From contig CACOIH010000018.1 in the NCBI GenBank assembly GCA_902627245.1, positions 1 through 33,080 of the forward strand: a DNA stretch of 33,080 nucleotides, in the 5' to 3' direction. Origin of the DNA: an uncultured Alphaproteobacteria bacterium. Its GTDB lineage: Bacteria > Pseudomonadota > Alphaproteobacteria > HIMB59 > GCA-002718135. The number at the start of each line of letters is the position of its first letter. Within the stretch, counting starts at the first letter, position 1. The translations under genes were made by a program, and so were the position numbers. Shown here in pieces: positions 2,205 through 22,221 of this stretch. A model generated the notes under the pieces. The model was not told the origin of the DNA. It made no database searches and saw only the letters and a program-made list of their open reading frames with translations.

Positions 2205-2969
2205 TTACCTTGATGTATATCCACCATCTACAACTAATATCTCTCCAGTAATATAACTAGATGCTGGCGAACATAAAAAGAGTGCCGCTGTAGCAACTTC
2301 TTCTGGATTTCCCATTCTTCCCATAGGAGTGAATTTATTCCATTTGTCATACCAGTGTTCATTTTCTTTTGACAAATTTGTCATTGGAGTCTTTATGTAA
2401 CCGGGAGCTATTGCATTAACCCTGATATTAGAATCTGCATAGTCACTTGCTAAACTTTTTGTTAACATATGAACTGCTGATTTTGAGGCATTATAAGCAA
2501 CTTGTGGCTGTGGAAAATTTGAAACAATACCTGACATAGAGCCAATATTTAAAATACACCCCTCTTTTTGATTTTTCATTTTTATAATACTTTGTCTGCA
2601 TAAACGAAAAACTGATTTAAAATTCACATCAAACATTTTTGTTAATGACTCATCATCATAGTTTTCCATTTCTATTGATGCTGCTATTCCTGCACAATTA
2701 ACAAGAATATCCAATGAGTTATATTTACCTATAGCAAAATTTATTAATTCTTCTGGAAAATCAGGATTTGTGATATTTCCTTTAATAAATTCAAAAGTAT
2801 AGTTTTTAGTTTTTAATTTATCCAAGAAGCTTTTATCTTCTTTCATATCCGTCAAAATTAGTTTTGCTCCAGATTCTCCTAAAGCATCAGCAATGGCAAA
2901 ACCCATTCCACCCATAGCACCAGTGACAATTGCAATCTTATTTGGAATTTTAAATTTGTCTAAAATCAT
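2205..2969 (-). CDS. SDR family oxidoreductase (polyol dehydrogenase-like)
   Basis: A 254-residue classical short-chain dehydrogenase/reductase, normal in length. Visible: cofactor motif TGAMGGMG (residues 16-23), NCAG (91-94, a variant of NNAG), and the catalytic triad Ser146, Tyr159, Lys163 in SMSG...YNASK. The C-terminus ends in the usual [11 protein letters not shown]. The start ATG lies one base after the stop of the SorC regulator gene (TAG-A-ATG), so it is the last gene of the leftward operon binding protein - permease - permease - regulator - SDR. In the Rhodobacter smo locus the equivalent SDR (SmoS) is sorbitol/galactitol dehydrogenase. I infer a polyol or ketose reductase role here, but SDR substrate cannot be read from sequence. 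Gluconate 5-dehydrogenase-like activity is an alternative. Confidence 0.88.
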
Positions 2970-2970
2970 T

Positions 2971-3945
2971 CTAAGTTAAAATAATTTTAGCGGCTTCTTC
3001 ATCAGTTATTAAACCATATAAGCATCCATTTAACAAAACTGATTTGATTGCAAAAGCTTTATCAGTACCTCCTGCTATAGCTATGGTTTTTTTCTTCTTA
3101 ATTAAGTCGAAATCTTTTCTAACAATTTCATCATAAAAAAAGTGTTTCCCATTTTTATCAAAAAAATTTCCGCTAGACTCTGCGAGAGCTCCATCTTTTT
3201 TTATCTGATTAAAAAACTTCTTATCAATTAAATAAGGATGATTTTTAACTCTGTTATATAAACTAGTGCCACCTTTCATAGAACCAATCCCCAAAATGAT
3301 ATATTGACATTCTTCTTCTTTTTTAAGAATATCTTTTACAAACTTTAAATTAAAAAATTTATTTTTTTCTTTTAAAGTAGGGAAAATATAAGGTGCACCC
3401 AGGTGATAACATTTCCCATTAGTCTTCCTAGAAAGTGTATTTAATCCCAAAAGTGGATTAAATGACAAATCATTTCTTAAAGATCCCGTGGTATCAACAA
3501 AACTAACCTTCTCATTAATTTGTGGAAGTATATTTGCAATTCTTGTATTTGTAGAACCTGTAGACCAGCCAAAGTTTCTACATTTTTCTTCATTTATTTT
3601 ATTTAGAATAGTATTGGCACCAGCATATGCAATAGATAACGGATCGGGGTCTAATGTATTGGCAGTTGTTTGTTGACCATGCAAACTTTCACTTGGAACT
3701 ACTTCTATATGTTTTAGATTATACCTTTTTTTAATTTCCTCTTCATAGCGCGTACAAATATCAAATGATCCTTCAACAAATACTTTAACTGATCCATTTT
3801 TTTCAGCTTCATTTAAAATTCTATGAACTTGAACTGTATTAATCTTAAATTTTTTTGCTATCTCTTTTTGTGATATTTTTTGTTTCCAGTACATCCATGC
3901 AATTCTATTAGTGTAATCATTGAATCTATTTTTTGATTTTAACAC
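2971..3945 (-). CDS. SorC/DeoR-type sugar-binding transcriptional regulator
   Basis: A 324-residue regulator with an N-terminal helix-turn-helix (about residues 20-47, with [11 protein letters not shown] and VHRILNEAE) followed by a SorC-type sugar-binding domain. The domain begins at the [12 protein letters not shown] segment and contains GWSTGSTN and GIGSMKGG, as expected for a phosphosugar-isomerase-like effector fold. The start is GTG, one base after the permease stop (TAA-A-GTG); the nearest internal Met (residue 18) would remove part of the HTH. Family members sense a sugar, polyol or their phosphates and bind palindromic operators. It is the only transcription factor in the window, so it probably controls the divergent promoter at 7041-7143, where two TGTAA-N4-TTACA palindromes lie. 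Whether it represses or activates is not evident. Confidence 0.88.
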
Positions 3946-3946
3946 T

Positions 3947-4768
3947 TTAGTTTTTTACTGCGCCCAAAGTCAGTCCTGAGACTATATTTTTCTGTAAGAA
4001 TATTGTTAGTAATATTGGAGGAATACTTTGAATAACTGTTGCGGCAGCAACATTACCCCAAATAATTTGAGCTTGACTTACTTGTGCAGAGATAAATATT
4101 GGGAAAGTTCTGGCATCAGATACTGTAAAAAACAGTGCTATTAGTAATTCATTCCAGCTAAAGATAAATACAAATATTGCAACTGTAGCGATACCACCTT
4201 TTGATAAAGGAACAGCAATTTTAAGAAATATATCAAACCATGACGCACCTTCTATTCTAGATGCTTCTATTAAGTCCATTGGTATCCTTCTAAAAAATGA
4301 TGCTGAGACCCATACTGCAAAAGGAATATTAAAAGCAGTATAAACTATAATTAAAGCAAATAAGGAATCTAATAAATTTAAGTATTTAAATAAGATAAAT
4401 AATGGAACTGCTGCAGCAACAGGTGGTAACATACGAGTACTTAATATCCAGTCAGCTAAAAAATTCTGCCCTCTGAATATAAAAAAAGTCAAACCAAAGG
4501 CTGTAGGTAGAGAAAAAATCAATGTGACTATTGTCGAACCGATCGTCACAATCAACGAGTTTATCAGATACATATAGCTCTGTGAAAGCATAATTGTAAA
4601 ATTTTTAAGATAAGTAAAATCTGGTATCCAAATTGGAGGCAATGAAAACATTGCATTTTGATCCTTAAATGATCCAAATAACATCCATAAATTTGGAAGA
4701 ATAAAGATCAACATGAAGAAAATAGCAAATGCTAATAAAATTATATTTTTTCTAGCTGAAGTCCGCAT
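3947..4768 (-). CDS. Carbohydrate ABC transporter permease (MalG/SmoG-like)
   Basis: A 273-residue inner-membrane permease of the MalG family with six predicted hydrophobic segments; the first starts at about residue 9. The cytoplasmic EAA loop that contacts the ATPase is EASRIEGASWFDIFLKIAVP, followed by the typical WNELLIAL segment. The start overlaps the partner permease by 17 bp and is preceded by the SD-like GGAGAG. It works with the permease at 4752 and the binding protein at 5703. The locus resembles smoEFG (sorbitol/mannitol uptake). No MalK-type ATPase gene is adjacent, so one must be supplied from outside the window, perhaps from just upstream of base 1. Confidence 0.92.
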   Translation of the reverse strand: MRTSARKNIILLAFAIFFMLIFILPNLWMLFGSFKDQNAMFSLPPIWIPDFTYLKNFTIMLSQSYMYLINSLIVTIGSTIVTLIFSLPTAFGLTFFIFRGQNFLADWILSTRMLPPVAAAVPLFILFKYLNLLDSLFALIIVYTAFNIPFAVWVSASFFRRIPMDLIEASRIEGASWFDIFLKIAVPLSKGGIATVAIFVFIFSWNELLIALFFTVSDARTFPIFISAQVSQAQIIWGNVAAATVIQSIPPILLTIFLQKNIVSGLTLGAVKN

Positions 4769-5645
4769 TTCTCTCCACTCTTCTTAAAAGTGTAACTGCA
4801 ATAGTTGTAACTATGATACTAATAATTAAAATAATAACAGCTGATGCAGAACCTGTTCCAATTTGAAAACTTCTAAACTCTGTTCGGTAAGTAAAATAAG
4901 CCATAACTTCTGTTGCAATTCCAGGCCCACCTCTAGTTGTAACATAAATTATATCAAATAAACGGATACATTCTATTAACCTTAAAACTATTCCTAAGAG
5001 CATAAAACTTAAAATTGATGGAATCTCAATTTTTGTCATAACATGATACCAGTTTGCACCGTCTATTTTGGCAGCTTCATATTGTTCGCTTGGTACAGTC
5101 ATCAAACCTGCCAACAAAAGTATCATCATAAAAGGCGTCCATTGCCATGAATTAATACAAATAATTGATATCTTTGCTGGTATAGGCTGACCTAAGTATG
5201 CGATTGGTTCTAAACCAAAAAATGTTTCAACAATATAACTAAATATACCAAGTGTTGGGTTCAAAATATATAAAAAAACTAAACCAACACAAAGAGGGGT
5301 TAACATAATCGGTAAGATGGATATTGTTCTAATAGCATTAGATATTTTAAGATGCCTTATTTCAAAAAAAATTTTAGCCATTATGAAACCAAGAATTATT
5401 TCAATAGTTATTGAACTAAAAGCAATCGTAAATGTATTTTGTATTGCTGTTAGAAATACATCGTCTTCAAATAATAATATTTGATAATTTTCCCATCCAA
5501 TAAAAAATTTACGGTGCATTTTAGTTAGCTTAGCCTGAAATGCACTAAGATATACTGAGTATATGAAAGGGAATATGGATATAGCTAAGAGGAATAAACA
5601 GGTTGGTAAAATAAAAAGAGTTTTTTCAATTTTTTCTCTGTTCAT
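4752..5645 (-). CDS. Carbohydrate ABC transporter permease (MalF/UgpA/SmoF-like)
   Basis: A 297-residue inner-membrane permease of the MalF/UgpA family. The N-terminal segment (about residues 10-33) is hydrophobic and five more membrane segments follow. The EAA loop reads EAAKIDGANWYHVMTKIEIP, and the conserved TRGGPG lies near the C-terminus. Its start is preceded by AGGAG (complement of 5651-5655) at a 5-nt spacing. The SD sits directly after the T-run of the hairpin at 5664-5692, so permease expression is likely lower than that of the binding protein upstream. It forms the heteromeric channel with the 3947 gene. Confidence 0.92.
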   Translation of the reverse strand: MNREKIEKTLFILPTCLFLLAISIFPFIYSVYLSAFQAKLTKMHRKFFIGWENYQILLFEDDVFLTAIQNTFTIAFSSITIEIILGFIMAKIFFEIRHLKISNAIRTISILPIMLTPLCVGLVFLYILNPTLGIFSYIVETFFGLEPIAYLGQPIPAKISIICINSWQWTPFMMILLLAGLMTVPSEQYEAAKIDGANWYHVMTKIEIPSILSFMLLGIVLRLIECIRLFDIIYVTTRGGPGIATEVMAYFTYRTEFRSFQIGTGSASAVIILIISIIVTTIAVTLLRRVERNADFS

Positions 5646-5662
5646 TCAAGCTCCTAAAAAAA

Positions 5663-5692
5663 TTACTTGGGCATTATATAAATGCCCAAGTA
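5663..5692 (-). terminator. Intrinsic (probably leaky) terminator between binding-protein and permease genes
   Basis: A perfect 12-bp inverted repeat: arm TACTTGGGCATT at 5664-5675, 5-nt loop, arm AATGCCCAAGTA at 5681-5692. Read leftward, the hairpin comes 10 nt after the binding-protein stop and is followed by seven T residues (complement of 5656-5662), the signature of an intrinsic terminator. The SD of the permease gene starts immediately after the T-run. Inside an operon such an element normally lets only part of transcription through, giving much more binding protein than permease, and protects the upstream mRNA end. Confidence 0.8.
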
Positions 5693-5702
5693 TAAAATAT
5701 TA

Positions 5703-7040
5703 TTAATCAATATATCCTTCAGATTTTAGGAGTCTATCAATTTTTTTGTTTGCCGCATCCATTGCGTCTTGCGCAGATGCTTCCCCTGTTAATGCTTTAT
5801 TAACTTCAATTCCAAGTGTTTCTATCACTTCAAAAGTTAATGCATGTCTTGGTCTTAGTTCTTGCCATGCTCTTAAGCTTGACTCATATAGAACTGGCGT
5901 CCAAGGTTGCTCAGCGTTAATCTGAGGATCATTCATAGCTGAGTGTCTGCTAGGAGGAGCTCCTGTTAGTACCCATTCTCTATGAACTTCAGGGCTTGCA
6001 AACCATTTTAGGTAATCCCAAGCAGCATCGATGTTTTTACTGTGCTTATTAACACAAGCAATCCAACCACCTACTGGAGGTACTGAAGAAGCACCTTCGG
6101 CATGCGGGAATAAGGCAACATCAAATTTGCCAATTACTTTACTAATCTCTGGATCATTAAATAAAGGAGTTCTAACTGACCAGTTATTAATCATAGCAAC
6201 TTTACCTTGTGTAAATGCTTTTGCTCTTTCATCCCATGCATATTGCTCAACACCTGGAGGCATATAATTAATCATTTCTTGCATCCATTCTATAAATGCA
6301 ACTGATTCTGCTGAATTATATAATCCTCTTTGATCAGCGTAGGCATCAGGTGAACCAGGATAGTTACTTTCCCATGGCTTACCACCTGCAGAATAAATCC
6401 ACTCATAAAATTGCTGTCCAGCAGCACTTCCACGAGCCATATTCATTGCATATCCACCTTCGAGTTCAGGATATTTTGGATTATCTTTGAAAAGTTTAGC
6501 TGCAGCTAAAACATCATCAAATGTTTCAGGTGGTTCTAGACCTTCAGCTTCAAATAAATCAGTTCTATAGTGAAGCATATGCCAATATCCACCAAAAGGT
6601 AAGCATTGTTTTTTACCATCCCATATCGCTTGACCAGCAAATGAGCTAATATAATCATCCCATGCTATAACAGACATATCTGTACCTTCTTCAGTCCAAA
6701 GATCTTCAACTGGAGCTATACAATCACCTTCTACAAATTCTCCAATCCAAATTCCATCGACAAAAAGTACATCGTATGAACTATCTCCTTGTGAACATGC
6801 AACGATTTGTTTTTCATGCAAACCATCATATCCAAAACCTTCAACAGTTACTGAAGCTCCAGTAACAGAAGTAAAAGTTGGAGAAATTTCTTTAACAGCA
6901 TCGATGTAAGGGTCCATAATAGACTGAACCTTTAGGTCTACACCGCTGTGATCTCCAAGTTCTTTTGACCAATCTACAGCTAACAAACTGTTCATTGGTA
7001 AAAGAGATAGAGAACAAATTAACAGTATTTTCTTTAACAT
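5703..7040 (-). CDS. Extracellular sugar/polyol-binding protein of ABC transporter (SmoE-like)
   Basis: A 445-residue periplasmic solute-binding protein of the MalE-type family (family 1). The N-terminus MLKKILLICSLSLLPMNSLLA is a typical Sec signal with likely cleavage before VDW. The mature part has the family's FTQGKVAMINNWSVR region and a conserved VGGWIACVNKHSKN segment. Length fits sugar-alcohol-binding proteins (about 430-450). The start at 7040 is backed by a strong SD, AGGGAGGT (complement of 7046-7053), unusual in this window where most genes lack one. This and the downstream hairpin point to high expression. First gene of a leftward operon, divergent from the zinc dehydrogenase at 7144. 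A polyol ligand is inferred from the neighbours. Confidence 0.92.
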   Translation of the reverse strand: MLKKILLICSLSLLPMNSLLAVDWSKELGDHSGVDLKVQSIMDPYIDAVKEISPTFTSVTGASVTVEGFGYDGLHEKQIVACSQGDSSYDVLFVDGIWIGEFVEGDCIAPVEDLWTEEGTDMSVIAWDDYISSFAGQAIWDGKKQCLPFGGYWHMLHYRTDLFEAEGLEPPETFDDVLAAAKLFKDNPKYPELEGGYAMNMARGSAAGQQFYEWIYSAGGKPWESNYPGSPDAYADQRGLYNSAESVAFIEWMQEMINYMPPGVEQYAWDERAKAFTQGKVAMINNWSVRTPLFNDPEISKVIGKFDVALFPHAEGASSVPPVGGWIACVNKHSKNIDAAWDYLKWFASPEVHREWVLTGAPPSRHSAMNDPQINAEQPWTPVLYESSLRAWQELRPRHALTFEVIETLGIEVNKALTGEASAQDAMDAANKKIDRLLKSEGYID

Positions 7041-7143
7041 TAATAACCTCCCTCTAATGTTATCTGAGATTATAATTGCATAAATGGATAGTCATTACAA
7101 TATAATAATTGTAATTTATTACATATGATGTAAGTTATTACAT
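7041..7143. promoter_or_regulatory. Divergent promoter/operator region of the polyol module
   Basis: This 103-bp gap lies between the binding-protein operon (leftward) and the dehydrogenase-epimerase-GMC operon (rightward). TATAAT occurs on the plus strand at 7101-7106 and on the minus strand at 7069-7074, both at positions suitable for -10 boxes. The -35 matches are poor (TTGCAT at 7076-7081 for plus; TTGTAA, complement of 7095-7100, for minus, with a long spacer). An inverted repeat ATTACAAT-N6-ATTGTAAT spans 7094-7115. Placing both promoters here is inference from motif position. Confidence 0.6.
7110..7142. promoter_or_regulatory. Two tandem TGTAA-N4-TTACA operator palindromes
   Basis: TGTAATTTATTACA (7110-7123) and TGTAAGTTATTACA (7129-7142) are 14-bp palindromes 19 bp apart and differ at one base. 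A further outward half-site TTACA lies at 7095-7099. The first copy starts 4 bp after the putative plus-strand -10 box, so it covers the expected transcription start. The second ends one base before ATG 7144. A repressor bound here would block the rightward operon. The SorC-type regulator encoded at 2971 is the obvious candidate binder, but that is inference. Confidence 0.6.
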
Positions 7144-8175
7144 ATGAAAGCCCTTGTTCTAGAAAAAAAATTGCAGTTATCATTGAGAGATATTGATTTA
7201 CCTAGCGATGTAGGATCAAGAGATGTAAAAATAAAAATGAATACTGTTGGTATTTGTGGCAGTGATGTTCATTATTATACACATGGAAAAATTGGACCTT
7301 TCATTGTCAAAGAACCTATGGTTCTAGGACATGAAGGATCAGGAACAATAATAGAAACTGGAAGTGAAGTTTCTAATCTTAAAGTTGGAGATAGAGTATG
7401 TATTGAACCAGGTGTTCCAGATATAAATTCAAAAGAATACATGAAGGGAATTTATAATCTCGATCCAAAGCTAACATTTTGGGCAACTCCACCTGATCAT
7501 GGTTGTCTAACACCAGAGGTTGTTTTTCCATCGAACTTTGTTTTTAAGTTACCCGATAATGTTTCTTATGCAGAGGGAGCAATGATTGAGCCGCTCGCAG
7601 TTGGACTTCAGGCTGCAGAAAAAGCTAAAATTATTCCTGGTGAAACTGCATTAGTAATGGGTTGTGGTCCTATTGGTTTGGTAATTGCTTTGACAGCATT
7701 AGCTGGTGGATGTTCTAAAGTTTTTATTGCCGATATTGTTAAAGAAAAACTAAGAATGTGTGAAAATTATGAAAACTTGATACCGATTGATCTTATGAAT
7801 CAAAATCCAATTGAAATAATTAAAAAACATACTGATGATTGGGGTGCTAATATTATCTTTGAAGCATCAGGAGCAACTAAAGCTTATGATTTTATATTTG
7901 ATTCTATTTGTCCTGCAGGTAAACTAGTTATTGTAGGCAATCCTATGAACGCAATTCCAATGGATTTTGCGACTTTGTTAACAAAAGAAATTGAAATTAA
8001 GACAGTCTTTAGATATGCACATCAATATGACAGAGCAATTAGTTTATTATCAAGTAACAAAATTAATGTTAAACCTATGATTACAGACACAGTAGCTTTT
8101 GATGATAGTATTAAAGCTTTTGAAAGAGCTGCCAAAAACCTGCCAGAAGATGTAAAAATTCAAATTCAATTATGA
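7144..8175 (+). CDS. Zinc-dependent polyol (sorbitol/xylitol-type) dehydrogenase
   Basis: A complete 343-residue medium-chain dehydrogenase that would convert a polyol such as xylitol or sorbitol to the ketose with NAD. Catalytic zinc ligands are visible as Cys in GICGSDVHYY, His-Glu in LGHEGSG and Glu in EPLAVG. The nucleotide fold shows GCGPIGLV. The loop after GDRVCIEP, which in many bacterial relatives carries four cysteines for a structural zinc, here has Asp, Ser, Tyr and Asp instead, so only the catalytic zinc is expected, as in mammalian sorbitol dehydrogenase. No SD is present: the ATG directly follows a TTACAT element, and the expected leader is about 30 nt at most. It overlaps the next gene by 4 bp (ATGA) and is paralogous to the truncated gene at the left edge. 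Confidence 0.92.
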   Translation: MKALVLEKKLQLSLRDIDLPSDVGSRDVKIKMNTVGICGSDVHYYTHGKIGPFIVKEPMVLGHEGSGTIIETGSEVSNLKVGDRVCIEPGVPDINSKEYMKGIYNLDPKLTFWATPPDHGCLTPEVVFPSNFVFKLPDNVSYAEGAMIEPLAVGLQAAEKAKIIPGETALVMGCGPIGLVIALTALAGGCSKVFIADIVKEKLRMCENYENLIPIDLMNQNPIEIIKKHTDDWGANIIFEASGATKAYDFIFDSICPAGKLVIVGNPMNAIPMDFATLLTKEIEIKTVFRYAHQYDRAISLLSSNKINVKPMITDTVAFDDSIKAFERAAKNLPEDVKIQIQL

Positions 8176-9026
8176 ATAAAATTGGTGTACACGCTTTAAC
8201 ATTCATTGGGGATATAGAAAATCATAGCATTGAAAATTGTCTTTCAAGAGTTGCAAAGATTGGCTACGATGTGATGGAATTGCCTCTGCTAAATCCTGAT
8301 GCTTTAGATACAAATTTTGTTTCAAAGATTTATGAAAAGTTTAATATTGAACCAACTGTATCTCTTGGGTTGAGTTTTAAAACTGATATTTCATCTGAAG
8401 ATCAAGAGAGGGTTAATGCTGGTCGTGAGCTTTTATTTAAAGCACTTCAAAAAACAATAGATGTGGGGTCATCAAATTTATGTGGTGTCATTCATTCAGC
8501 GCTTCAAAAAAATGATACTCCTAAAACTAAAAGAGGTTATGAAAACTCTTTATCTATAATTAGAGATCTTGCAGAAGAGGCAAATAAGAATAATGTTACT
8601 TTAAGCCTTGAAGTAGTTAATAGATATGAGACCAATATTATGAATACAGCACAAGATGCTCTAGATTATATTAGAGATCTAGACGTACCAAATGTTAAAG
8701 TTCACCTCGATACTTACCATATGAACATTGAAGAAAACAATTATTCAGAACCAATAAAATTAATTGGAAAAGATAATTTGGGCATGTTTCATTTTGGTGA
8801 AAATCATAGGGGTTATCTTGGTAGTGGTCATATTGACTTTGATGAAACTTTTAAAAGCCTCAAAGAAATTAATTACTCAGGAATTATTACTTTTGAATCT
8901 TTTTCATCTGAGGTTGTAGATCCAGTTCTTTCTAACACCTTGGCAGTTTGGAGAAACTTGTGGAGTGATAGTGACGATTTAGCAACAGAGTCATTAAAAT
9001 TTATTAGAAGTGGACTTCAAAGTTAG
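8172..9026 (+). CDS. D-tagatose/D-psicose 3-epimerase family TIM-barrel protein
   Basis: A 284-residue sugar isomerase/epimerase of the AP-endonuclease-2 TIM-barrel type. The metal-binding residues of ketose 3-epimerases are all present: Glu147 in LEVVNRYET, Asp180 in HLDTYHMNIEE, His207 in FHFGENHRG and Glu242 in TFESF. The GENHRGYLGSGH segment is characteristic of D-tagatose/D-psicose (allulose) 3-epimerases. These enzymes invert C3 of free ketoses, including D-ribulose to D-xylulose. With dehydrogenases upstream and a xylulokinase facing it, a role in turning ketoses made from polyols into a kinase substrate is likely. The start is coupled to the dehydrogenase by an ATGA overlap. Family confidence is high; exact ketose unknown. 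Confidence 0.92.
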   Translation: MNKIGVHALTFIGDIENHSIENCLSRVAKIGYDVMELPLLNPDALDTNFVSKIYEKFNIEPTVSLGLSFKTDISSEDQERVNAGRELLFKALQKTIDVGSSNLCGVIHSALQKNDTPKTKRGYENSLSIIRDLAEEANKNNVTLSLEVVNRYETNIMNTAQDALDYIRDLDVPNVKVHLDTYHMNIEENNYSEPIKLIGKDNLGMFHFGENHRGYLGSGHIDFDETFKSLKEINYSGIITFESFSSEVVDPVLSNTLAVWRNLWSDSDDLATESLKFIRSGLQS

Positions 9027-9060: not shown

Positions 9061-10659
9061 ATGAAAACATTTGATTTTATAATTGTTGGTGGAGGTACAT
9101 CGGGAACTGTTACTGCCGAGAAATTAATTAAAAATGGTCATACAGTTTTAATTATAGAAGAAGGAAAGAAAAATAGTAATCCACTATTGAGTATGCCTGC
9201 TGGATGGATACCTATGTTAGAAGGCAGTCCATATTTAAAATTTTACAAATCAATTCCTCAACCTCAACTTGGTGATAGACAACATGATATTGCTCAAGCT
9301 AAAGTTTTTGGTGGAGGATCAAGTGTCAATGGAATGGTTTATATGCGCGGAAAACCTTCAGACTATGCAAAGTGGGTTGACGCGACTGGAGATAAAAGAT
9401 GGGGATGGGACTCAATTATAAAAAGTTATATTAATTTAGAAAATAATCAAAGATTAGGTGCTCCCTCACACGGAACGAGTGGACCAATAAAAGTTTCTGA
9501 TCCTGGATATGTTGCTAAAGGATCAGATTTGTACATTAAATCAATGCAAGCATTGGGATTACCTTACAATAGAGATTTTAATGATGGAAACCAATTTGGT
9601 GTTGGTTTAATGCAATACACAATAGGTAATGGAAAAAGATGTGATACAATTTCCTCATTAATTAACCCAATTCTCAATAATAAAAACCTTAGCATAAAAC
9701 TCAACACTCTTGCATCAAAGATTATAATTGAGAATAAAAAAGCAATTGGCGTAGAAACTATATCAAAGAATAAAGTTCAAAAATATTTTGGAAAAGAAAT
9801 TATACTTACAGCAGGAGCTCTAATAACTCCAAAAATATTGATGCACTCAGGTATAGGAGATGAAGATCAATTAAAAAGATTTGATATAGAAGTTAAAGAA
9901 AAGTTACATGGTGTTGGGAAAAACTTGCAGGATCATCATGAAGTTCCTTTTATTGCAAGAGCTAAACCAGGTTATGGATATTTTAAACAAAATAAGGGGT
10001 TTAGAATGATAAAAAATGGTATTCAATATCTTCTTTTTAAGTCAGGGCCTGTAACTTCTAATGGTGTAGATTGTTGCTCTTTTCTCAATCCAGAAAATTT
10101 AAAAGATGATACTAATCCTAAAATTAAATTATATTGTGTTCAAATTATGTATACTGATAGAGATACAAAAGGTATCAAGCCTGATCATGGAGTTACTTTA
10201 ACATCTTGTATAATGAACCCTAAATCTAGAGGAGAGGTAACAATTAATTCGGCTAATCCAAAAGATTTACCTGATATTAATCCAAACTTTCTTAGCAATA
10301 AAGATGATATTAAAACTTTATTAGATAGTGTAAAATTATCAAGACAAGTGATAAATACAAAACCTTTGTCAGATATTATAATTGAAGAAGTACTTCCTGG
10401 AAATAATATTAAAGATGATAATGAATTAATTAATTATTGTAAAAAAATGATTAAAACTAACTGGCACCCTGTTGGTACATGTAAGATGGGTAGAGACGAA
10501 GATGAAACTTCGGTTCTAAATTCAAAATTACAAGTTAAAGGAATTAATAATTTAAGAGTTTTTGATGTTTCTATGATGCCAAATATTATAGCAGCAAATA
10601 CTAATGCTCCAGCTATGGCAATAGCAGATAATGCAACTAATATTATGCTAGAAGATTAG
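9061..10659 (+). CDS. GMC family FAD-dependent oxidoreductase (choline dehydrogenase-like)
   Basis: A 532-residue glucose-methanol-choline flavoprotein oxidising an alcohol group. The FAD-binding GGGTSG lies at residues 10-15, and GGGSSVNGMVYMRG is the first GMC signature. The active-site pair is His469 in WHPVGTCKMG and Asn513 in NTNAP, 44 residues apart as in choline oxidase. No signal peptide, so a cytoplasmic or membrane-associated quinone- or cytochrome-linked dehydrogenase is expected. It is the third gene of the rightward dehydrogenase-epimerase operon, 34 bp after the epimerase, with no SD. Its 3' end overlaps the convergent xylulokinase by 17 bp. True choline dehydrogenase is unlikely given the neighbours; a polyol or sugar is the more natural substrate (inference). 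Confidence 0.9.
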   Translation: MKTFDFIIVGGGTSGTVTAEKLIKNGHTVLIIEEGKKNSNPLLSMPAGWIPMLEGSPYLKFYKSIPQPQLGDRQHDIAQAKVFGGGSSVNGMVYMRGKPSDYAKWVDATGDKRWGWDSIIKSYINLENNQRLGAPSHGTSGPIKVSDPGYVAKGSDLYIKSMQALGLPYNRDFNDGNQFGVGLMQYTIGNGKRCDTISSLINPILNNKNLSIKLNTLASKIIIENKKAIGVETISKNKVQKYFGKEIILTAGALITPKILMHSGIGDEDQLKRFDIEVKEKLHGVGKNLQDHHEVPFIARAKPGYGYFKQNKGFRMIKNGIQYLLFKSGPVTSNGVDCCSFLNPENLKDDTNPKIKLYCVQIMYTDRDTKGIKPDHGVTLTSCIMNPKSRGEVTINSANPKDLPDINPNFLSNKDDIKTLLDSVKLSRQVINTKPLSDIIIEEVLPGNNIKDDNELINYCKKMIKTNWHPVGTCKMGRDEDETSVLNSKLQVKGINNLRVFDVSMMPNIIAANTNAPAMAIADNATNIMLED

Positions 10660-12127
10660 AGGCTATTTTTTTATTAGAAGAATATATATCTCTCCAAATA
10701 TTATAACGTTTTAAAAGAAGGTCAATTTTATCCTGATTTGGATTAAAACTTTTACTGACATTTATTTCTTTGATTATATTTTCTTTTGTATCAATATTCT
10801 TATCTACATACATTGATAGTCTAGCAACTCCAAGTGCAGCTCCAAATTCACTTTGATCACATACACTAAGGTTTCTGTTCAGTAGCGATGCAAGTAATTC
10901 AATCCAAAATTTACTCTTAGAACCACCTCCAACCATAAAAATTTTTTCAAAGTTATTATTGACCTTTAGTATTGAGTTAACACCATCCAGAATACCAAAA
11001 CTAATTCCCTCTATAACAGCGTATTGTAAATTTGTTGAATTAGTGGTTGTTTTCATTGAGTGAAAAGAACCGCGGATATATGGATCATTATGAGGTGTTC
11101 GCTCTCCAGATAAATATGGTAAAAAAAATGAAGAACTTATAAGATCATTCGTATTAGAAAAGTATTCTTCTACATTAGAAAGAGCTTCTCCAATTGACGT
11201 ATTAGTAATAGAACAAACCCAATCCAAACAATTACTAGCGCTTAGCATGACTGACATTAAATGCCATTTATTTGGCAAACAATGACAAAAAGAGTGAACC
11301 GCGTCTCCAGTATTACTTAAAAAATTTTGAGTTGGTGTAAAAAATACACCTGAAGTTCCAAGTGAAATAAATGACTGATTCTGTTCAGTAATTCCCATCC
11401 CTGCTGCTGCTGCTGCATTATCTCCAGCACCACCAACAATAATGACAGTATTTTTAAAATTAAATTTTTCTTTAAATTTATTTTTAAGCGTTCCTGTCTC
11501 CTCATTTCCTTCTACAAGCTTTGGCATATGTTTTTCTTCTAGAAAAGAACAAGACAATAAATTTTCTGACCATTTTCTTTTTTTAATATCTAACCACAAA
11601 GTTCCTGATGCATCAGACATTTCAGAGAAATATTCTCCAGTTAAATAGAACCTTAAATAATCTTTAGGTAATAGTACTTTAAAAATTTTTGAGAAATTTT
11701 CACTTTCATGCTTCTTAATCCAGTTTATTTTGGGAGCAGTAAAACCAGGCATTGTGATATTTCCAGATATTGATCTTACATCAATTCCTTGATTTTCAAA
11801 TTCAATACACTCCTCATAGGAACGAGTATCATTCCAAAGAATACATGGTCTGATGACTTTACCATCCTTGTCTACAAGAGTTGCTCCATGCATATGGCCT
11901 GAAATTCCAATGGAAATAGTTTCGCAAAATTCAGTAGGCTTTTGCAATTTTAGTGACTCAAAACATTCCATAGTAGCATTTACCCATTCTTGTGGATTTT
12001 GTTCGTTATAGCCATCTTTAGGACTTTGAACTGTGAGACCTGAATTAGCGGTAGCAATAATATTTTGATTGCTATCTATTAAAATCATTTTTACAGACGA
12101 GGTTCCGAGATCAATACCTATATACAT
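10643..12127 (-). CDS. xylB: Xylulokinase (FGGY carbohydrate kinase)
   Basis: A 494-residue FGGY-family kinase that would phosphorylate D-xylulose to D-xylulose 5-phosphate. The N-terminal phosphate-binding GIDLGTSSVKMILID and the xylulokinase-type ISGHMHGATLVD...RPCILWNDTR are clear (most xylulokinases read GQMHG; here Gln is His). GGAGDNAAAAAGMG and FMVGGGSKSKFW give the C-terminal ATPase motifs. Length matches the family (about 480-500). It is the last gene of a leftward run that begins with the Ldh_2-type gene at 15234, separated from the DMT transporter by 39 bp. Its 3' end overlaps the GMC gene. It is the kinase outlet for ketoses made by the polyol dehydrogenases. A close relative such as ribulokinase is less likely. 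Confidence 0.9.
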   Translation of the reverse strand: MYIGIDLGTSSVKMILIDSNQNIIATANSGLTVQSPKDGYNEQNPQEWVNATMECFESLKLQKPTEFCETISIGISGHMHGATLVDKDGKVIRPCILWNDTRSYEECIEFENQGIDVRSISGNITMPGFTAPKINWIKKHESENFSKIFKVLLPKDYLRFYLTGEYFSEMSDASGTLWLDIKKRKWSENLLSCSFLEEKHMPKLVEGNEETGTLKNKFKEKFNFKNTVIIVGGAGDNAAAAAGMGITEQNQSFISLGTSGVFFTPTQNFLSNTGDAVHSFCHCLPNKWHLMSVMLSASNCLDWVCSITNTSIGEALSNVEEYFSNTNDLISSSFFLPYLSGERTPHNDPYIRGSFHSMKTTTNSTNLQYAVIEGISFGILDGVNSILKVNNNFEKIFMVGGGSKSKFWIELLASLLNRNLSVCDQSEFGAALGVARLSMYVDKNIDTKENIIKEINVSKSFNPNQDKIDLLLKRYNIWRDIYSSNKKIASNLLA

Positions 12128-13027: not shown

Positions 13028-14223
13028 ATACTATCCAAATTTTTAAAAATTGAGTCATAGAAGTCTTGTTTAACTACTCTATCACCATCAATAATTTGCA
13101 TCATTAAAACAGCTGATAATTGATTTATGGGGTCAACTAAAAAATATGTTGATGCATATCCAGACCAACCAAATTCACCAATGTTTCCAAATTTGTTACT
13201 TTCTGTATTATTCATTAATATTCTAAAACCTAGACCCCAACCATAACCATCAAGATCGTTAATATAATTTTCATCTTTAATTGTATTTACAGATGTAATT
13301 TCAAGTGGAAACAACTTTGGATTTAAGTTGTTTGATCGCATATTGGTTAGAGTTTCCAAACTTATTATTTGTTTTCCATTATTATTTTTTCCATTTATTA
13401 GCATATGTGCAAACTTAGAATAATCGTTCGCTGTAGAAAATAGTCCGTGTCCTCCCCTTGAATATTCTCGATTATTTATAGGATAAAAATAATTAATTAA
13501 TTTTCTTCCCTCTAAACTTAAGTTTTGTATTTTTTTATTTTTTTTAGAAAACTCTAAAGTTTCTACTAGTTTTTTATTTAGATTTTGATCTATAAAAAAA
13601 TCAGTTGAATACATTTCAAGTGGATGGAAAATATTTTCTTTTAAAATGTTGATAAGTTTATCTTTTGTAATAACTTCTAGTATTCTTGCTAAAATATCTA
13701 TCGAAACTGAGTAGTGCCATTGTGAACCTGGCTCAAAAAGAAGAGGTAACTGTGATATATTATCTATTTCTTCTTCTAAAGATGTGTCTCCTGGAAGAAA
13801 AATTTTTCTTTTATCGTACTCTTCACCGATAACATTATCACTACTATTATAAGTAAAACCAGTCGTATGGAGAAGTAACTGTCTGATTGTGGGAATATTT
13901 TTTGATGTATAAGATTCGTTGATATTATTAGCATTTTTATTTAAAATTTGTACTTCTCGAAACTGTGGAAGAAAAATATCAATGGTGCTATCTAATGATA
14001 GGTAGTTCTTTTCCACTAATTGCATTGTTGCAGTTGAGATGACAGGTTTTGTCATAGACCAAATTCTGTATAATAAATCTTTATTAAAGGGTTTTTTTTT
14101 ATTTAGATCTCTAAAACCAACAAAGTCATGATAAATTTTATTTTTTGAAATAATTTTCCATTCAGCACCATTACATATACCATTTTCAATATGTTTAATA
14201 AAATTATCTTTAATTTCATCCAT
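13024..14223 (-). CDS. Beta-lactamase-fold serine hydrolase (class C / family VIII esterase-like)
   Basis: A 399-residue serine hydrolase of the beta-lactamase/penicillin-binding family used by family VIII esterases. The nucleophile motif SxxK is SMTK in RIWSMTKPVIS. The second motif is YSV in WHYSVSIDILARILE, and the late GGHGLFST loop is typical of this group. I see no signal peptide, so it is probably cytoplasmic, which argues against antibiotic resistance and for an esterase/lactonase/amidase role. It overlaps the DMT transporter by 4 bp and lies 12 bp after the Ldh_2 gene, so it is co-transcribed. No SD at the start. The real substrate is unknown; hydrolysis of an acylated or lactonised sugar derivative would fit the locus but is speculation. 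Confidence 0.82.
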   Translation of the reverse strand: MDEIKDNFIKHIENGICNGAEWKIISKNKIYHDFVGFRDLNKKKPFNKDLLYRIWSMTKPVISTATMQLVEKNYLSLDSTIDIFLPQFREVQILNKNANNINESYTSKNIPTIRQLLLHTTGFTYNSSDNVIGEEYDKRKIFLPGDTSLEEEIDNISQLPLLFEPGSQWHYSVSIDILARILEVITKDKLINILKENIFHPLEMYSTDFFIDQNLNKKLVETLEFSKKNKKIQNLSLEGRKLINYFYPINNREYSRGGHGLFSTANDYSKFAHMLINGKNNNGKQIISLETLTNMRSNNLNPKLFPLEITSVNTIKDENYINDLDGYGWGLGFRILMNNTESNKFGNIGEFGWSGYASTYFLVDPINQLSAVLMMQIIDGDRVVKQDFYDSIFKNLDSI

Positions 14224-14235
14224 ATTTTAAAGGAG

Positions 14236-15234
14236 TTATATTAAACTATTAATTTTTTCTATTAAGCTAGTATTAATTTCTCTTGGGCCTTTATTCTTTC
14301 TGTTATTGTGCCTTCTAGCTCCTGGTAAGCGCACACCTTCTAAAGAGGTCATTTGTTCAAAAAAACTCTCTGCGTGTTCATTCCAGTTTTTTCCTGCAAT
14401 TAATTCAGGTGATAATGCCATGATAAACTCGCCTCCTCTAGCAGGTCCCCCGTCATTATTATCTTCTTCTTTGGCTTCAAAGCTAAATAAATCGCCCACA
14501 AGACCAGCTGCTAAAAGTTCAATCATCATAGCAATTGCAGAACCTTTATAATCTCCAAAAGTTAAAAGAACTCCTCCATTTGCTATTTGAGATGGATCAT
14601 CTGTTTTTTCACCTTCTTTATTCAGACCTGTACCATATGGAACTTTGTGTCCATCCCGTGCTGCAACTTGCACTTCACCCATCGCCATAGTTGAAGTAGC
14701 CATATCATATACTACTGGAGTATTATTTTTTCTAGGCCAAGCAAAAGAAATTGGATTAGTTCCAAAAAGTGGTTTCTTTGCTCCTGCTGGTGCAACACTA
14801 GGTTTGTATGCAGTACAAGCAATACCAATCAAATTATTTTCTGCCAGAGTTTCAGTTTCATGCCATAAAGCAGCAAAGTGATGTGTATTAGTTATTGTTA
14901 AAACTCCAACACCATGATTGTTTGTTGTTTGAATTAAATCAGGTAAACCTACTTTGATGGCTACAGGAGCAAAGCCATAATCGCCTTCAACTCGTATTGC
15001 ATTTTGTGTAAGAAAAGTGTTTGAGGGTCTTGAAACTCCATTTACTTTTTTACTTTTAAGAGAGGCCACATAGCCTGGAATTCTGAATAAGCCATGTGAA
15101 ACACTTCCATCTCTTTCAGCATGAGTAACAGTTGTAGCAACTGACTCTGCATTAAAATCGTCACATCCATGTTTTTTCAGAACATTATATGCTAAATCAT
15201 ATATTTTATTTAATTCTAGAGATGTAGTATTCAT
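14236..15234 (-). CDS. Ldh_2 (malate/L-lactate/ureidoglycolate dehydrogenase) family oxidoreductase
   Basis: A 332-residue NAD(P)-dependent 2-oxoacid/2-hydroxyacid dehydrogenase of the Ldh_2 family, unrelated to classical lactate dehydrogenase. Recognised by ERDGSVSHGLFRIPGY near residues 30-50, GVGVLTITNTHHFAALWHETE, FGTNPISFAWPR with VYDMATS, and GDYKGSAIAMMIELLAAGLVGD. Members act on malate, lactate, ureidoglycolate, 2,3-diketogulonate or cyclic imino acids. It heads a leftward operon (hydrolase, DMT transporter, xylulokinase) and is divergent from the GlcD-like gene with only 35 bp between start codons. Reduction or oxidation of a sugar-derived 2-oxo acid is plausible. Confidence 0.88.
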   Translation of the reverse strand: MNTTSLELNKIYDLAYNVLKKHGCDDFNAESVATTVTHAERDGSVSHGLFRIPGYVASLKSKKVNGVSRPSNTFLTQNAIRVEGDYGFAPVAIKVGLPDLIQTTNNHGVGVLTITNTHHFAALWHETETLAENNLIGIACTAYKPSVAPAGAKKPLFGTNPISFAWPRKNNTPVVYDMATSTMAMGEVQVAARDGHKVPYGTGLNKEGEKTDDPSQIANGGVLLTFGDYKGSAIAMMIELLAAGLVGDLFSFEAKEEDNNDGGPARGGEFIMALSPELIAGKNWNEHAESFFEQMTSLEGVRLPGARRHNNRKNKGPREINTSLIEKINSLI

Positions 15235-15269
15235 TTACTTTTTATAAATTATAAATAATATTCAAATAT
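15235..15269. promoter_or_regulatory. Very short divergent intergenic region with AT-rich -10-like boxes
   Basis: Only 35 bp separate the two divergent ATG codons at 15234 (minus) and 15270 (plus). The gap contains TATAAA at 15243-15248 and again at 15250-15255, and no SD on either strand. Any promoter pair must overlap each other or extend into the opposite coding sequence, and at least one transcript is probably nearly leaderless. Confidence 0.35.
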
Positions 15270-16637
15270 ATGGATAGAGGATTATTAGACAATTTAAAAG
15301 ATCTTTTACAAGAAAGAATCTCATTTTCAGAAAGTGTTAGAAATAATCATGCTAAAGGTGAAGATGCTTATGATCCTATTTTACCTAAAGCAGTTTTATT
15401 TCCAAATAATAATGATGAGTTATCAAAAATATTAAAAATTTGTAATGAATACAAAATTCCTGTCACTGCCTATGGTACAGGTACTTCCTTAGAAGGTCAT
15501 GTTGTTGGAAATGAAGAAGGTTTTACTATATCTCTAGAAAATTTTAACAAAGTTATTTCAATTAATGAACAAGACTTTGATTGTCGTGTCCAGGCAAATG
15601 TATCTCGTGAACAACTTAATGAAGCCTTAAAAGATAAAGGTGTTTTTTTTCCAATTGATCCTGGAGCGAATGCTTCATTAGGAGGTATGGCAGCATGTTC
15701 AGCTTCTGGAACCATGGCAGTGAGATATGGCACAATGAGAACAGCTGTGCTAGGTCTTACAGTTGTTCTAGCTAATGGTGATATAATTAAAACTGGCACA
15801 AGAGCCAAAAAAACTTCTGCAGGTTATAATTTAACAAACTTATTTGTAGGATCAGAGGGCACTCTAGGTATTATAACAGAAGTTCATCTAAGATTGTCTC
15901 CAATTCCAGAAAGTATTATGAGTGCAGTATGTCAATTTCCAGATCTTGACTCAGCAATATTAACAGCTCAAGAAATAATTCAGTATGGGGTACCTATAGC
16001 AAGAGTTGAATTATTAAATAAAGATCAAATGGATATAAGTATAGAATATTCTAATCTTGAAAATTTAGATGTACTTCCAACTTTGTTTTATGAATTTCAT
16101 GGAAGTGAAATTTCAAATAAGGAATCAATAAATGTTGTGGAAGAAATATCAAAAAATAATAATGGAAGTGAATTTAAATGGGCAGAAAATACAGAAGAAA
16201 GAAATAAAATATGGAAAGCAAGACATAATGTTTATTATTCTGTAAAAGCTCAGGGTGATAATATTAGAGTGTATGCTACTGATGTTTGTGTTCCAATTTC
16301 AAATATAGTTGAATGCATTAAATTTGCTGAAAATGAACTTCAAGGTACAGGTCTTAAAGCGCCAATGGTTGGTCATGTTGGTGATGGAAATTTTCATGTT
16401 ACTATTGTCTATGATCCAAACAAAGAAAATGAATACACATATATAAGAGAATTTAGTAACAAATTAATAGATAAAGCGCTCGAAATGGATGGCACTATAA
16501 CTGGAGAACATGGAATTGGTCTTCAAAAAAAGGAATATCTACTCAAACAACATCCAGACAATGTTCCACTTATGAAATTAATTAAAAAAAGTTTTGATCC
16601 AAATAATATTATGAACCCTGGTAAAGTATTTGATTAA
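15270..16637 (+). CDS. FAD-binding oxidoreductase, GlcD / D-lactate dehydrogenase family
   Basis: A 455-residue flavoprotein with an N-terminal FAD_binding_4 (PCMH/VAO-type) domain, seen as VTAYGTGTSLEGHVVG and the PGANASLGGMAACSASGTMAVRYGTM segment, and a C-terminal FAD-oxidase_C domain with VGHVGDGNFHVTI and the signature TGEHGIGLQKKEYL. The protein ends in NPGKVFD as most relatives do. Members oxidise D-lactate, glycolate or other D-2-hydroxyacids and pass electrons to cytochrome c or quinone. It stands alone on the plus strand, divergent from the Ldh_2 gene, and ends 2 bp before the convergent Gfo/Idh gene. D-lactate or glycolate formed by cleavage of keto-deoxy sugar acids would be a logical substrate. 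No GlcE/GlcF partner genes are present, so a single-subunit D-lactate dehydrogenase type is favoured. Confidence 0.88.
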   Translation: MDRGLLDNLKDLLQERISFSESVRNNHAKGEDAYDPILPKAVLFPNNNDELSKILKICNEYKIPVTAYGTGTSLEGHVVGNEEGFTISLENFNKVISINEQDFDCRVQANVSREQLNEALKDKGVFFPIDPGANASLGGMAACSASGTMAVRYGTMRTAVLGLTVVLANGDIIKTGTRAKKTSAGYNLTNLFVGSEGTLGIITEVHLRLSPIPESIMSAVCQFPDLDSAILTAQEIIQYGVPIARVELLNKDQMDISIEYSNLENLDVLPTLFYEFHGSEISNKESINVVEEISKNNNGSEFKWAENTEERNKIWKARHNVYYSVKAQGDNIRVYATDVCVPISNIVECIKFAENELQGTGLKAPMVGHVGDGNFHVTIVYDPNKENEYTYIREFSNKLIDKALEMDGTITGEHGIGLQKKEYLLKQHPDNVPLMKLIKKSFDPNNIMNPGKVFD

Positions 16638-20736: not shown

Positions 20737-22221
20737 TTAATTTATTGCATAACTCATAATATTTTCTTGAGTAGCCTCTCTATTATTTAAAACTTTTGTT
20801 ATTTTTCCTTCACGCATTACAATTATTCTATGTGATAAAGAAAGTATCTCAGGTAATTCGGATGAAATTAAAATTATTGCCGTACCTTCTTTAGCTAATT
20901 GATTTATAATTTCATACATTTCTGATTTAACTCCAACATCAACACCTCTGGTTGGCTCATCTAGAATTAGAACTTTTGGTTTTGAAAGTAACCATTTAGA
21001 GATTATACATTTTTGCTGGTTTCCACCCGACAACTCTTCTATTAACTGTCTCCCTGAAGTAAGAATAATATTAAATCTTTTAATATAATCATTTGTTTTT
21101 GATGTTACAGATTTTGAATTAATAAGGCCTAAATTATTAGATATTTCTTTTGGAACTGCTGAAGTCACGTTGTCTTCTACTGCGACAGGACCAAAAATAC
21201 CCATTTGCTTTCTATCTTCAGGCACGTAGGCGAAGCCTTTATTGATAGCTTCATTAGGGGAATTGTTTACAATAGTTTTTCCATTGTAAATAATTTCACC
21301 TTTATCAAATTTTTCTGCTCCAAATATACTTTTAGCTACTTCTGTTCTTCCAGCTCCAACCAAACCTGCAAATCCAAGTATTTCTCCCTTTTTAAGATTA
21401 AATGAAATATCACTAAATTTCTTTGAGAGTGATAAATTTTTAACATTTAAAATATAATCTTCGTTTTTTAGGAATTCATTTTCTTTAACTTCCGTTTCTT
21501 CAATGTTTCTACCAATCATAAATTTTATAATTTCCTCATTTGTAACTTCATTTATATTTTTGGTAGTAATTAAATCTCCATCTCTAAATATTGTCACTCT
21601 ATCAGATATTTGTCTAATTTCTTCCAATCGATGACTAATAAAAATAATTGCCATTCCATTTGATTTAAGTTTGCTTACAATTTCAAATAATTTACCAACT
21701 TCATTAGGTGTTAATGGTGAAGTAGGTTCGTCCATAATTAATACTTTGGAATTTTTTGAAAGAGCTCCTGCTATTTCTATCATTTGTTGATCCGCAATTG
21801 ACAAACCTTCCATAATTATTTTTGGATCGATTTTAAGTCCAATCGATTGTAATAATTCATTTGATTTACTATTAATCTCTTGCCATTTAACTCTTGATAA
21901 ATTGCTACCTTCCATGTGTCCCATAAAAATATTTTCTGCCACAGAAAGATGAGAGAATGATTGTGGCTCTTGGTGGATTAATGATACACCATTTCTTTGT
22001 GCAACAATTGGTGAAGTGATATTAATATCTTTATCATCTAAAAATATATTTCCTTCAGTTGGTGTATAAACACCACTTAGAATTTTTACAAATGTAGACT
22101 TACCAGCACCATTTTCTCCAACTAATGCATGAACTTCTCCAGGTTTTAAGTCAAAATCTACATTTCTTAAAACATTAACCCCACTAAATGTTTTTCCAAT
22201 ATTATTAGTTTTTAATTGCAT
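20737..22221 (-). CDS. Sugar ABC transporter ATP-binding protein, two fused ABC domains (RbsA/RhaT-like)
   Basis: A 494-residue cytoplasmic ATPase with two ABC domains in tandem. Domain one has Walker A GENGAGKST (near residue 35), signature LSIADQQMIEIAGAL and Walker B VLIMDEPTSPL. Domain two has a degenerate Walker A GLVGAGRTE, as usual in this family, signature LSGGNQQK and Walker B VLILDEPTRGVD. It energises import of a monosaccharide through the two permeases downstream. It is the first gene of the leftward operon and is transcribed divergently from its binding-protein gene at 22343. No SD is seen before the ATG. Confidence 0.94.
   Translation of the reverse strand: MQLKTNNIGKTFSGVNVLRNVDFDLKPGEVHALVGENGAGKSTFVKILSGVYTPTEGNIFLDDKDINITSPIVAQRNGVSLIHQEPQSFSHLSVAENIFMGHMEGSNLSRVKWQEINSKSNELLQSIGLKIDPKIIMEGLSIADQQMIEIAGALSKNSKVLIMDEPTSPLTPNEVGKLFEIVSKLKSNGMAIIFISHRLEEIRQISDRVTIFRDGDLITTKNINEVTNEEIIKFMIGRNIEETEVKENEFLKNEDYILNVKNLSLSKKFSDISFNLKKGEILGFAGLVGAGRTEVAKSIFGAEKFDKGEIIYNGKTIVNNSPNEAINKGFAYVPEDRKQMGIFGPVAVEDNVTSAVPKEISNNLGLINSKSVTSKTNDYIKRFNIILTSGRQLIEELSGGNQQKCIISKWLLSKPKVLILDEPTRGVDVGVKSEMYEIINQLAKEGTAIILISSELPEILSLSHRIIVMREGKITKVLNNREATQENIMSYAIN

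Follow-up and report, generated by a model that had tools for sequence, protein, structure and literature searches.

A conserved pair of palindromes in a HIMB59-group genome is very probably the operator of a SorC-type regulator encoded nearby

Proteins of the SorC family bind to DNA as dimers of dimers, on two half-operators (PMC11229326), and the two SorC proteins characterised in that paper are repressors (PMC11229326), the mechanisms of the SorC/DeoR family being called largely unexplored there (PMC11229326). DeoR and CggR of Bacillus subtilis are tetramers acting on two half-operators; DeoR binds TTGAA...TTCAA and, as judged by size exclusion, has no affinity for single half-operators (PMC11229326). 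The DeoR operator of dra-nupC-pdp (PMC11229326) has in common with the site described here the protein family, the HTH type and two half-operators for a tetramer, and its left half, TTGAACAAAATTTCAA, shows the same 5-4-5 geometry as the palindrome pairs presented below, above all those of the type TGAAA-N4-TTTCA that go with a second regulator, SorC2. The right half of the DeoR operator, however, is degenerate and lies about 22 bp from the left half (centre to centre, by count), whereas here both palindromes are near-perfect, 19 bp apart and built on TGTAA arms. Furthermore, the DeoR operator (-60 to -21) overlaps the promoter (PMC11229326), whereas the pair studied here is located upstream of the presumed -35 element of one gene and at the presumed start of the other. 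CggR on the gapA operator is likewise a tetramer on two half-operators with palindromic and direct-repeat signatures, but it differs in its winged-helix DNA-binding domain and in its unrelated operator (CGGGAC), which lies downstream of the transcription start (+32 to +77; PMC11229326). LsrR of Escherichia coli also forms a tetramer (PMC11229326). It is the closest solved sequence to the regulator considered here (PDB 4l5i and 4go1), both for the whole protein (7.7e-18 with 4l5i) and for the DNA-binding domain (2.3e-6). LsrR controls autoinducer-2 uptake, not sugar alcohols.

The window, that is, the whole stretch of 33,080 nucleotides that was analysed, is a complete contig (G000:C18) of a draft genome of 1,188,358 bases that is 62% complete. 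On the minus strand it encodes an ABC solute-binding protein (SBP; 5703-7040; PF01547), whose best solved relative, 5iai (5.1e-47), is named a sugar ABC transporter, followed by two ABC permeases (4752-5645 and 3947-4768; both PF00528), a SorC-family regulator of 324 aa (2971-3945), which is the penultimate gene of this operon, and a short-chain dehydrogenase (SDR; 2205-2969; PF13561), for which, among the 25 NCBIfam rows listed, NF005559 alone scored above its cut-off. On the plus strand lie a Zn-dependent dehydrogenase, ZnDH2 (7144-8175; PF08240 and PF00107; closest NCBIfam models those for threonine and for idonate dehydrogenase, below cut-off), a sugar epimerase/isomerase-like TIM barrel protein (8172-9026; PF01261) and a GMC oxidoreductase (9061-10659; PF00732 and PF05199). 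The window also encodes a xylulokinase (10643-12127; 522 bits against an NCBIfam cut-off of 380) and a protein nearest to D-arabinitol 4-dehydrogenase (711-2195; NCBIfam, below cut-off). Together these genes likely specify a sugar-alcohol pathway via xylulose. Alphaproteobacterial sorbitol/mannitol (smo/mtl) clusters contain an SBP, two permeases, an SDR, a mannitol-type dehydrogenase, a SorC-type regulator and a xylulokinase. The same gene set is present here in a different order, and no transporter ATPase gene accompanies the SBP and the two permeases (2205-7040) in the window. The sole ABC ATPase found by Pfam in the 30 window proteins scanned (20737-22221) is located beside a different transporter; since none lies beside the SBP/permease set, an ATPase encoded elsewhere may serve it. 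Use of sorbitol and mannitol has been predicted for a cultured AEGEAN-169 strain (PMC10308909). The uptake operon is flanked by two related zinc dehydrogenases (26-799, cut by the contig start, and 7144-8175) that are 60% identical over 249 residues.

The regulator carries the SorC sugar-binding domain (PF04198; 8.4e-37; 127 bits against a cut-off of 27), and its residues 12-71 match the HTH of LsrR, which makes it a DeoR/LsrR-type HTH and not the winged type of CggR. The match of this HTH to B. subtilis DeoR is weak (0.043), that of the SorC2 HTH being 1.4e-5. When 30 window proteins were scanned with Pfam (10 at E of at most 1e-3 and 20 at E of at most 1e-8), the SorC protein was the sole regulator found.

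Two near-identical palindromes, to which the initial annotation had drawn attention, can be read directly in the sequence 19 bp apart, both within the 103 bp separating the SBP gene from ZnDH2: TGTAATTTATTACA at 7110-7123, the putative half-operator nearest the SBP gene, and TGTAAGTTATTACA at 7129-7142, that nearest ZnDH2 (neither has a strand). Their centres are TTTA and GTTA. The spacing had been described as two helical turns, which is approximate only, 19 bp corresponding to about 1.8 turns. Each palindrome and the next five bases make up a 19-bp unit, so read on the plus strand, two copies of which follow each other in tandem with one mismatch (7110-7128 and 7129-7147). Inside this unit lies the 13-bp direct repeat TTATTACATATGA (7116-7128 and 7135-7147), which does include the ZnDH2 start codon (ATG at 7144-7146) as had been reported, although the inclusion of that codon in the second copy of the unit is particular to this genome. 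An ATG ATG TAA at 7125-7133 forms a two-codon frame before the ZnDH2 start, out of the ZnDH2 frame, and is probably a by-product of the duplicated unit.

The perfect motif TGTAA-N4-TTACA occurs exactly twice in the whole 1.19-Mb draft genome, a scan proposed in the initial annotation, and both copies are at this site. Counts of single palindromes are not raised, either in this genome (2 versus 2 for the reversed pattern, which served as control) or in the 110 genomes of the family (379 versus 623 for the control, with the forward pattern exceeding it in 16 of 110). In 400 dinucleotide shuffles of the window, in which pairs were counted at 15-25 bp spacing, no pair with at most one mismatch appeared, against the one pair without mismatches in the window; looser pairs numbered 4 in 400 shuffles at up to two mismatches and 44 in 400 at up to three. 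The view that the palindromes arose by chance in AT-rich DNA could draw on the single imperfect matches, which are at chance level across the window (40 with at most two mismatches, 44 expected), and on the control pair (ACATT-N4-AATGT twice), which at the same tolerance is found in 13 of the order's 162 genomes, as compared with 10 of 162 for the genuine pair pattern. Since raw pair counts at this tolerance are thus close to chance, the weight falls on the orthologous place and the low number of mismatches (0-1): the signal is carried by the pairing, by the perfection of the arms and by conservation at one orthologous place, not by raw counts. That 10 genomes from two families keep the pair at one place with at most one mismatch, together with the empty shuffles, is nonetheless hardly what chance would give, and this conservation already refutes a chance origin, to which we attach practically no probability. 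All matches of the control pair fall in the family (13 of 110 genomes, 0 of the 52 others of the order), and may perhaps represent a conserved element of its own.

Conservation was followed across 162 genomes of the order, that is, the HIMB59/AEGEAN-169 group, of which 110 belong to the family and 52 are others of the order. The regulator (SorC1; 83-100% identical) and the solute-binding protein (SBP1) are each present in 11 of them. The 19-bp pair adjoins the SBP gene in 10 genomes, with no mismatch in four and one in six, over nine orthologous loci in addition to the present one, and these 10 are exactly the genomes holding both SBP1 and SorC1. In other words, the pair is present in 10 out of 10 SorC1 genomes in which the region is visible; in the eleventh (G014) the contig begins inside the permease gene and has no SBP match, which hides the site. 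The SBP-ZnDH2 intergenic region is absent from the genomes that have neither SBP1 nor SorC1, which leaves 11 genomes informative for the SorC1 operator, many of them closely related. The initial annotation had named beforehand, as an outcome that would speak against an operator, a lack of conservation in orthologous intergenic regions. The opposite was found: pairwise identity is 96% in the arms, 83% in the N4 centres, 77% in the bases between the palindromes and 59% in the flanks, as computed on the seven distinct sequences that the ten SorC-positive loci represent across the block, several being near relatives. At one locus (L012) there is an extra perfect palindrome, TGTAATTTTTTACA (9873-9886), on the ZnDH2 side, 30 bp from the pair. 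A further TGTAA-type pair with two mismatches (G150:C2) lies inside an ORF and was set aside.

One genome has lost the regulator. That is, G071 (locus L010 by coordinates; 67% complete) retains SBP1 (97%), both permeases and ZnDH2, but no SorC is found between permease and SDR, and there is no SorC match in the genome at E of at most 1e-20. Its intergenic region contains a remnant, TGTTTTAAATTACATTCTATGTAAGTATTTTCA, in which the 19-bp frame is kept and 3 of the 20 arm bases are changed. The operator thus occurs, and decays, with the regulator, although the decay is a single case. Conversely, G007 (locus L019) has a perfect operator, yet its SorC1 gene carries an in-frame TAG near codon 10 (about 13095-13125), before the HTH; this exception, which should be watched, may reflect a recent loss, an alternative start, a sequencing error, or evidence against the link with SorC. 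At L010 a different SDR (75%) follows the permeases and is itself followed by a GMC gene (87%; 13165-15521), and a second SDR/GMC pair (61% and 43%) is located on the other side (5603-7954), which is a rearrangement around the lost regulator. Outside the order, nine distant SorC homologues (25-30% identical) were retrieved from 8 genomes among 385 searched in the class; in a crude scan without control, and at a GC content very different from that of the HIMB59-group loci, seven of the nine had no pair, and in the other two (L091 and L094) a single imperfect, GC-rich pair was seen some 1 kb away from the gene. For the SBP relatives from Rhizobiaceae (L020-L023; 54-55%), neither a perfect TGTAA palindrome nor a SorC match was seen within about 21 kb.

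The palindromes are very probably the operator of the SorC-type protein encoded at 2971-3945. The initial annotation had predicted this protein as the binder, and the prediction is borne out by the presence of the pair in all SorC1 genomes with a visible region, by its decay where SorC1 is missing and by a paralogue with a correspondingly changed operator (see below). A different and perhaps global regulator, of CRP/FNR-like or LacI-like type, is an improbable owner. FNR-type sites read TTGAT-N4-ATCAA and LacI-type sites TGTAA-nCGn-TTACA, and TGTAA-N4-TTACA does resemble sites of other regulators. The low site counts given above, however, argue against a global regulon: they are not above chance in the genome or in the family. 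A LacI-family operator would be expected to have CG at its centre, whereas the centres here, TTTA and GTTA, have TT, and none of the seven distinct aligned rows contains a central CG. Moreover, the pair tracks SorC among the 11 informative genomes, and no other regulator is found by Pfam among the 30 proteins scanned, an argument that concerns regulators encoded in the window only.

A consensus promoter scan of 6900-7300 gave no accepted promoter in either direction, and the SBP promoter was therefore deduced from conservation. A TTACA at 7095-7099, which had been taken for a third half-site, is indeed there, but it lies 24 bp from palindrome 1 here and 23 bp in the orthologues, not 19; being out of the 19-bp register, it is best read as part of TTGTAA (7095-7100, minus strand), the probable -35 hexamer of the divergent SBP promoter. 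This hexamer is conserved in the SorC-positive loci 8-9 bp past palindrome 1 and is followed by N14-TG. The alignment would then place a probable extended -10 element, TGCAATTATAAT, at 7069-7080 on the minus strand (TG at 7080-7079, AT-rich hexamer at 7077-7072 or 7074-7069). On the plus strand a possible ZnDH2 -10 element, TATAAT (7101-7106), lies 3 bp before palindrome 1 and would put the rightward transcription start inside that palindrome, although it is not conserved as such in the orthologues.

The initial annotation had further proposed that the operator controls both transcription and translation starts, on the grounds that palindrome 2 abuts the ZnDH2 ATG and that this gene has no SD. 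The abutment is real in this genome but private to it: the distance from operator to ATG is 1 bp here, and 19, 20, 21, 46 (four loci), 48 and 54 bp in the nine orthologues. The missing SD is likewise true but ordinary, an SD-like motif being found in 5 of 25 window genes checked. Since the contact with the start codon is not conserved, the idea of a translation-start operator was rejected. An RNA element in the ZnDH2 leader, with hairpins acting on translation, seems very improbable. The start-codon overlap is suggestive of such an element, and a 5-bp hairpin is possible in either palindrome, that of the second reaching a z-score of -4.1 on its own 14 nt; on the other hand, both hairpins are weak (-0.5 and -1.6 kcal/mol), the stretches of 40 nt and 63 nt are ordinary (z-scores of -1.5 and -0.4), so that folding is unremarkable apart from this one 14-nt hairpin, and the arms are kept as sequence while the distance to the ATG ranges from 1 to 54 bp.

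Overall, we consider it about 85% probable that the palindromes are the two half-operators of one regulator of the SorC/DeoR subfamily, the SorC protein encoded at 2971-3945, located between divergent transcription units. This reading builds on the anatomy and conservation of the site, on the fact that it occurs together with SorC, and on the way in which operator and recognition helix have changed in parallel in the paralogue. From these observations we infer binding, the tetramer, repression, the inducer and the operon structure as follows. Each DNA-binding dimer of a SorC tetramer (dimer of dimers) would occupy its own TGTAA-N4-TTACA palindrome at the 19-bp spacing, between a leftward unit (SBP-permease-permease-SorC-SDR) and a rightward unit (ZnDH2-epimerase-GMC oxidase). 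Without inducer, SorC would block the rightward promoter or start and probably also the adjoining leftward promoter; an intermediate of the pathway (a polyol, a keto-sugar or a sugar phosphate) would loosen the tetramer and free both units. Because its gene is within the leftward operon, SorC would also control itself. Provided that SorC binds, it likely represses both units until an intermediate of the pathway releases it.

An unlikely alternative, though one to be taken seriously, is that SorC binds the pair but activates the SBP operon, and perhaps represses the ZnDH2 operon. The pair is located wholly upstream of the conserved TTGTAA, 8-9 bp off, so that the SBP core promoter as read here is left uncovered and the pair has a position that would also suit an activator; in addition, the pair keeps almost the same distance from the SBP ATG throughout (65-71 bp), in contrast to the variable ZnDH2 side (1-54 bp). 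Against activation, the pairs of the paralogous system end 29-35 bp ahead of SBP2, covering the place where its promoter or start is expected, both SorC proteins whose characterisation PMC11229326 reports act as repressors, and the SBP promoter on which the argument depends is itself a deduction. Repression by a SorC tetramer is the reading that we favour. As a switch, a SorC/DeoR-type tetramer operator is ordinary; what is new is its location here, and literature searches listed no paper on this operator or on SorC sites in HIMB59. In a streamlined marine group, the site provides a precise pairing of regulator and operator that is open to testing, and its near-perfect double palindrome may be a cleaner structural substrate than the asymmetric DeoR operator.

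The paralogue SorC2 was found in 10 of the 162 genomes (E of at most 1e-30), its full-length copies being 38-42% identical to SorC1 and one partial copy 34%; in several loci the two genes are about 1-7 kb apart. The SorC2 intergenic regions contain paired TGAAA-N4-TTTCA palindromes, with a spacing of 18 bp before SorC2/SDR and of 19 bp before SBP2. The latter pairs end at the distance from the SBP2 ATG given above, with an SD in between (11 loci), which, as far as sequence tells, is the position of a repressor. The 19-bp TGAAA pair with at most one mismatch occurs in 8 of 162 genomes, in each case at a distance of 49-64 bp from SorC2, with no match of the control pattern, and the remaining two SorC2 genomes (L008 and L009/L019) have it with two mismatches. 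The recognition helix reads NTVQVHR in 11 out of 11 SorC1 proteins, and all SorC2 copies that extend over the HTH have SKMRVHR, the corresponding place in B. subtilis DeoR being SRPTVSR. We lean towards the view that the HIMB59 group has a pair of related SorC repressors, in some genomes close neighbours, which stay separate through a single base difference in each operator arm (TGTAA versus TGAAA), read by different residues of the recognition helix (TVQVHR versus KMRVHR), within an otherwise fixed frame of 18-19-bp paired palindromes. If true, the SorC family would have here a naturally occurring switch of specificity with loss controls built in, and the paralogous pair would provide a ready test of how the recognition helix of SorC/DeoR proteins chooses its DNA.

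One such loss concerns SorC2 itself. In G121 (locus L014; 63% complete) SBP2 and the SDR are present and SorC2 is gone from between them; no TGAAA pair with at most three mismatches was found in 21 kb, whereas the near relative L013 has two pairs with one mismatch. Each of the two natural losses is a single case in a draft genome (67% complete for G071, 63% for G121), and the flanking DNA is changed in both. The 18-bp TGAAA pair with at most one mismatch was detected in 10 of 162 genomes (control 0), five with SorC2 and five without. In the five without SorC2 the pair has a different sequence, much alike among the five; the two of the five that were examined are coding matches inside an ORF of 930-942 aa, which by eye looks like the alpha chain of DNA polymerase III.
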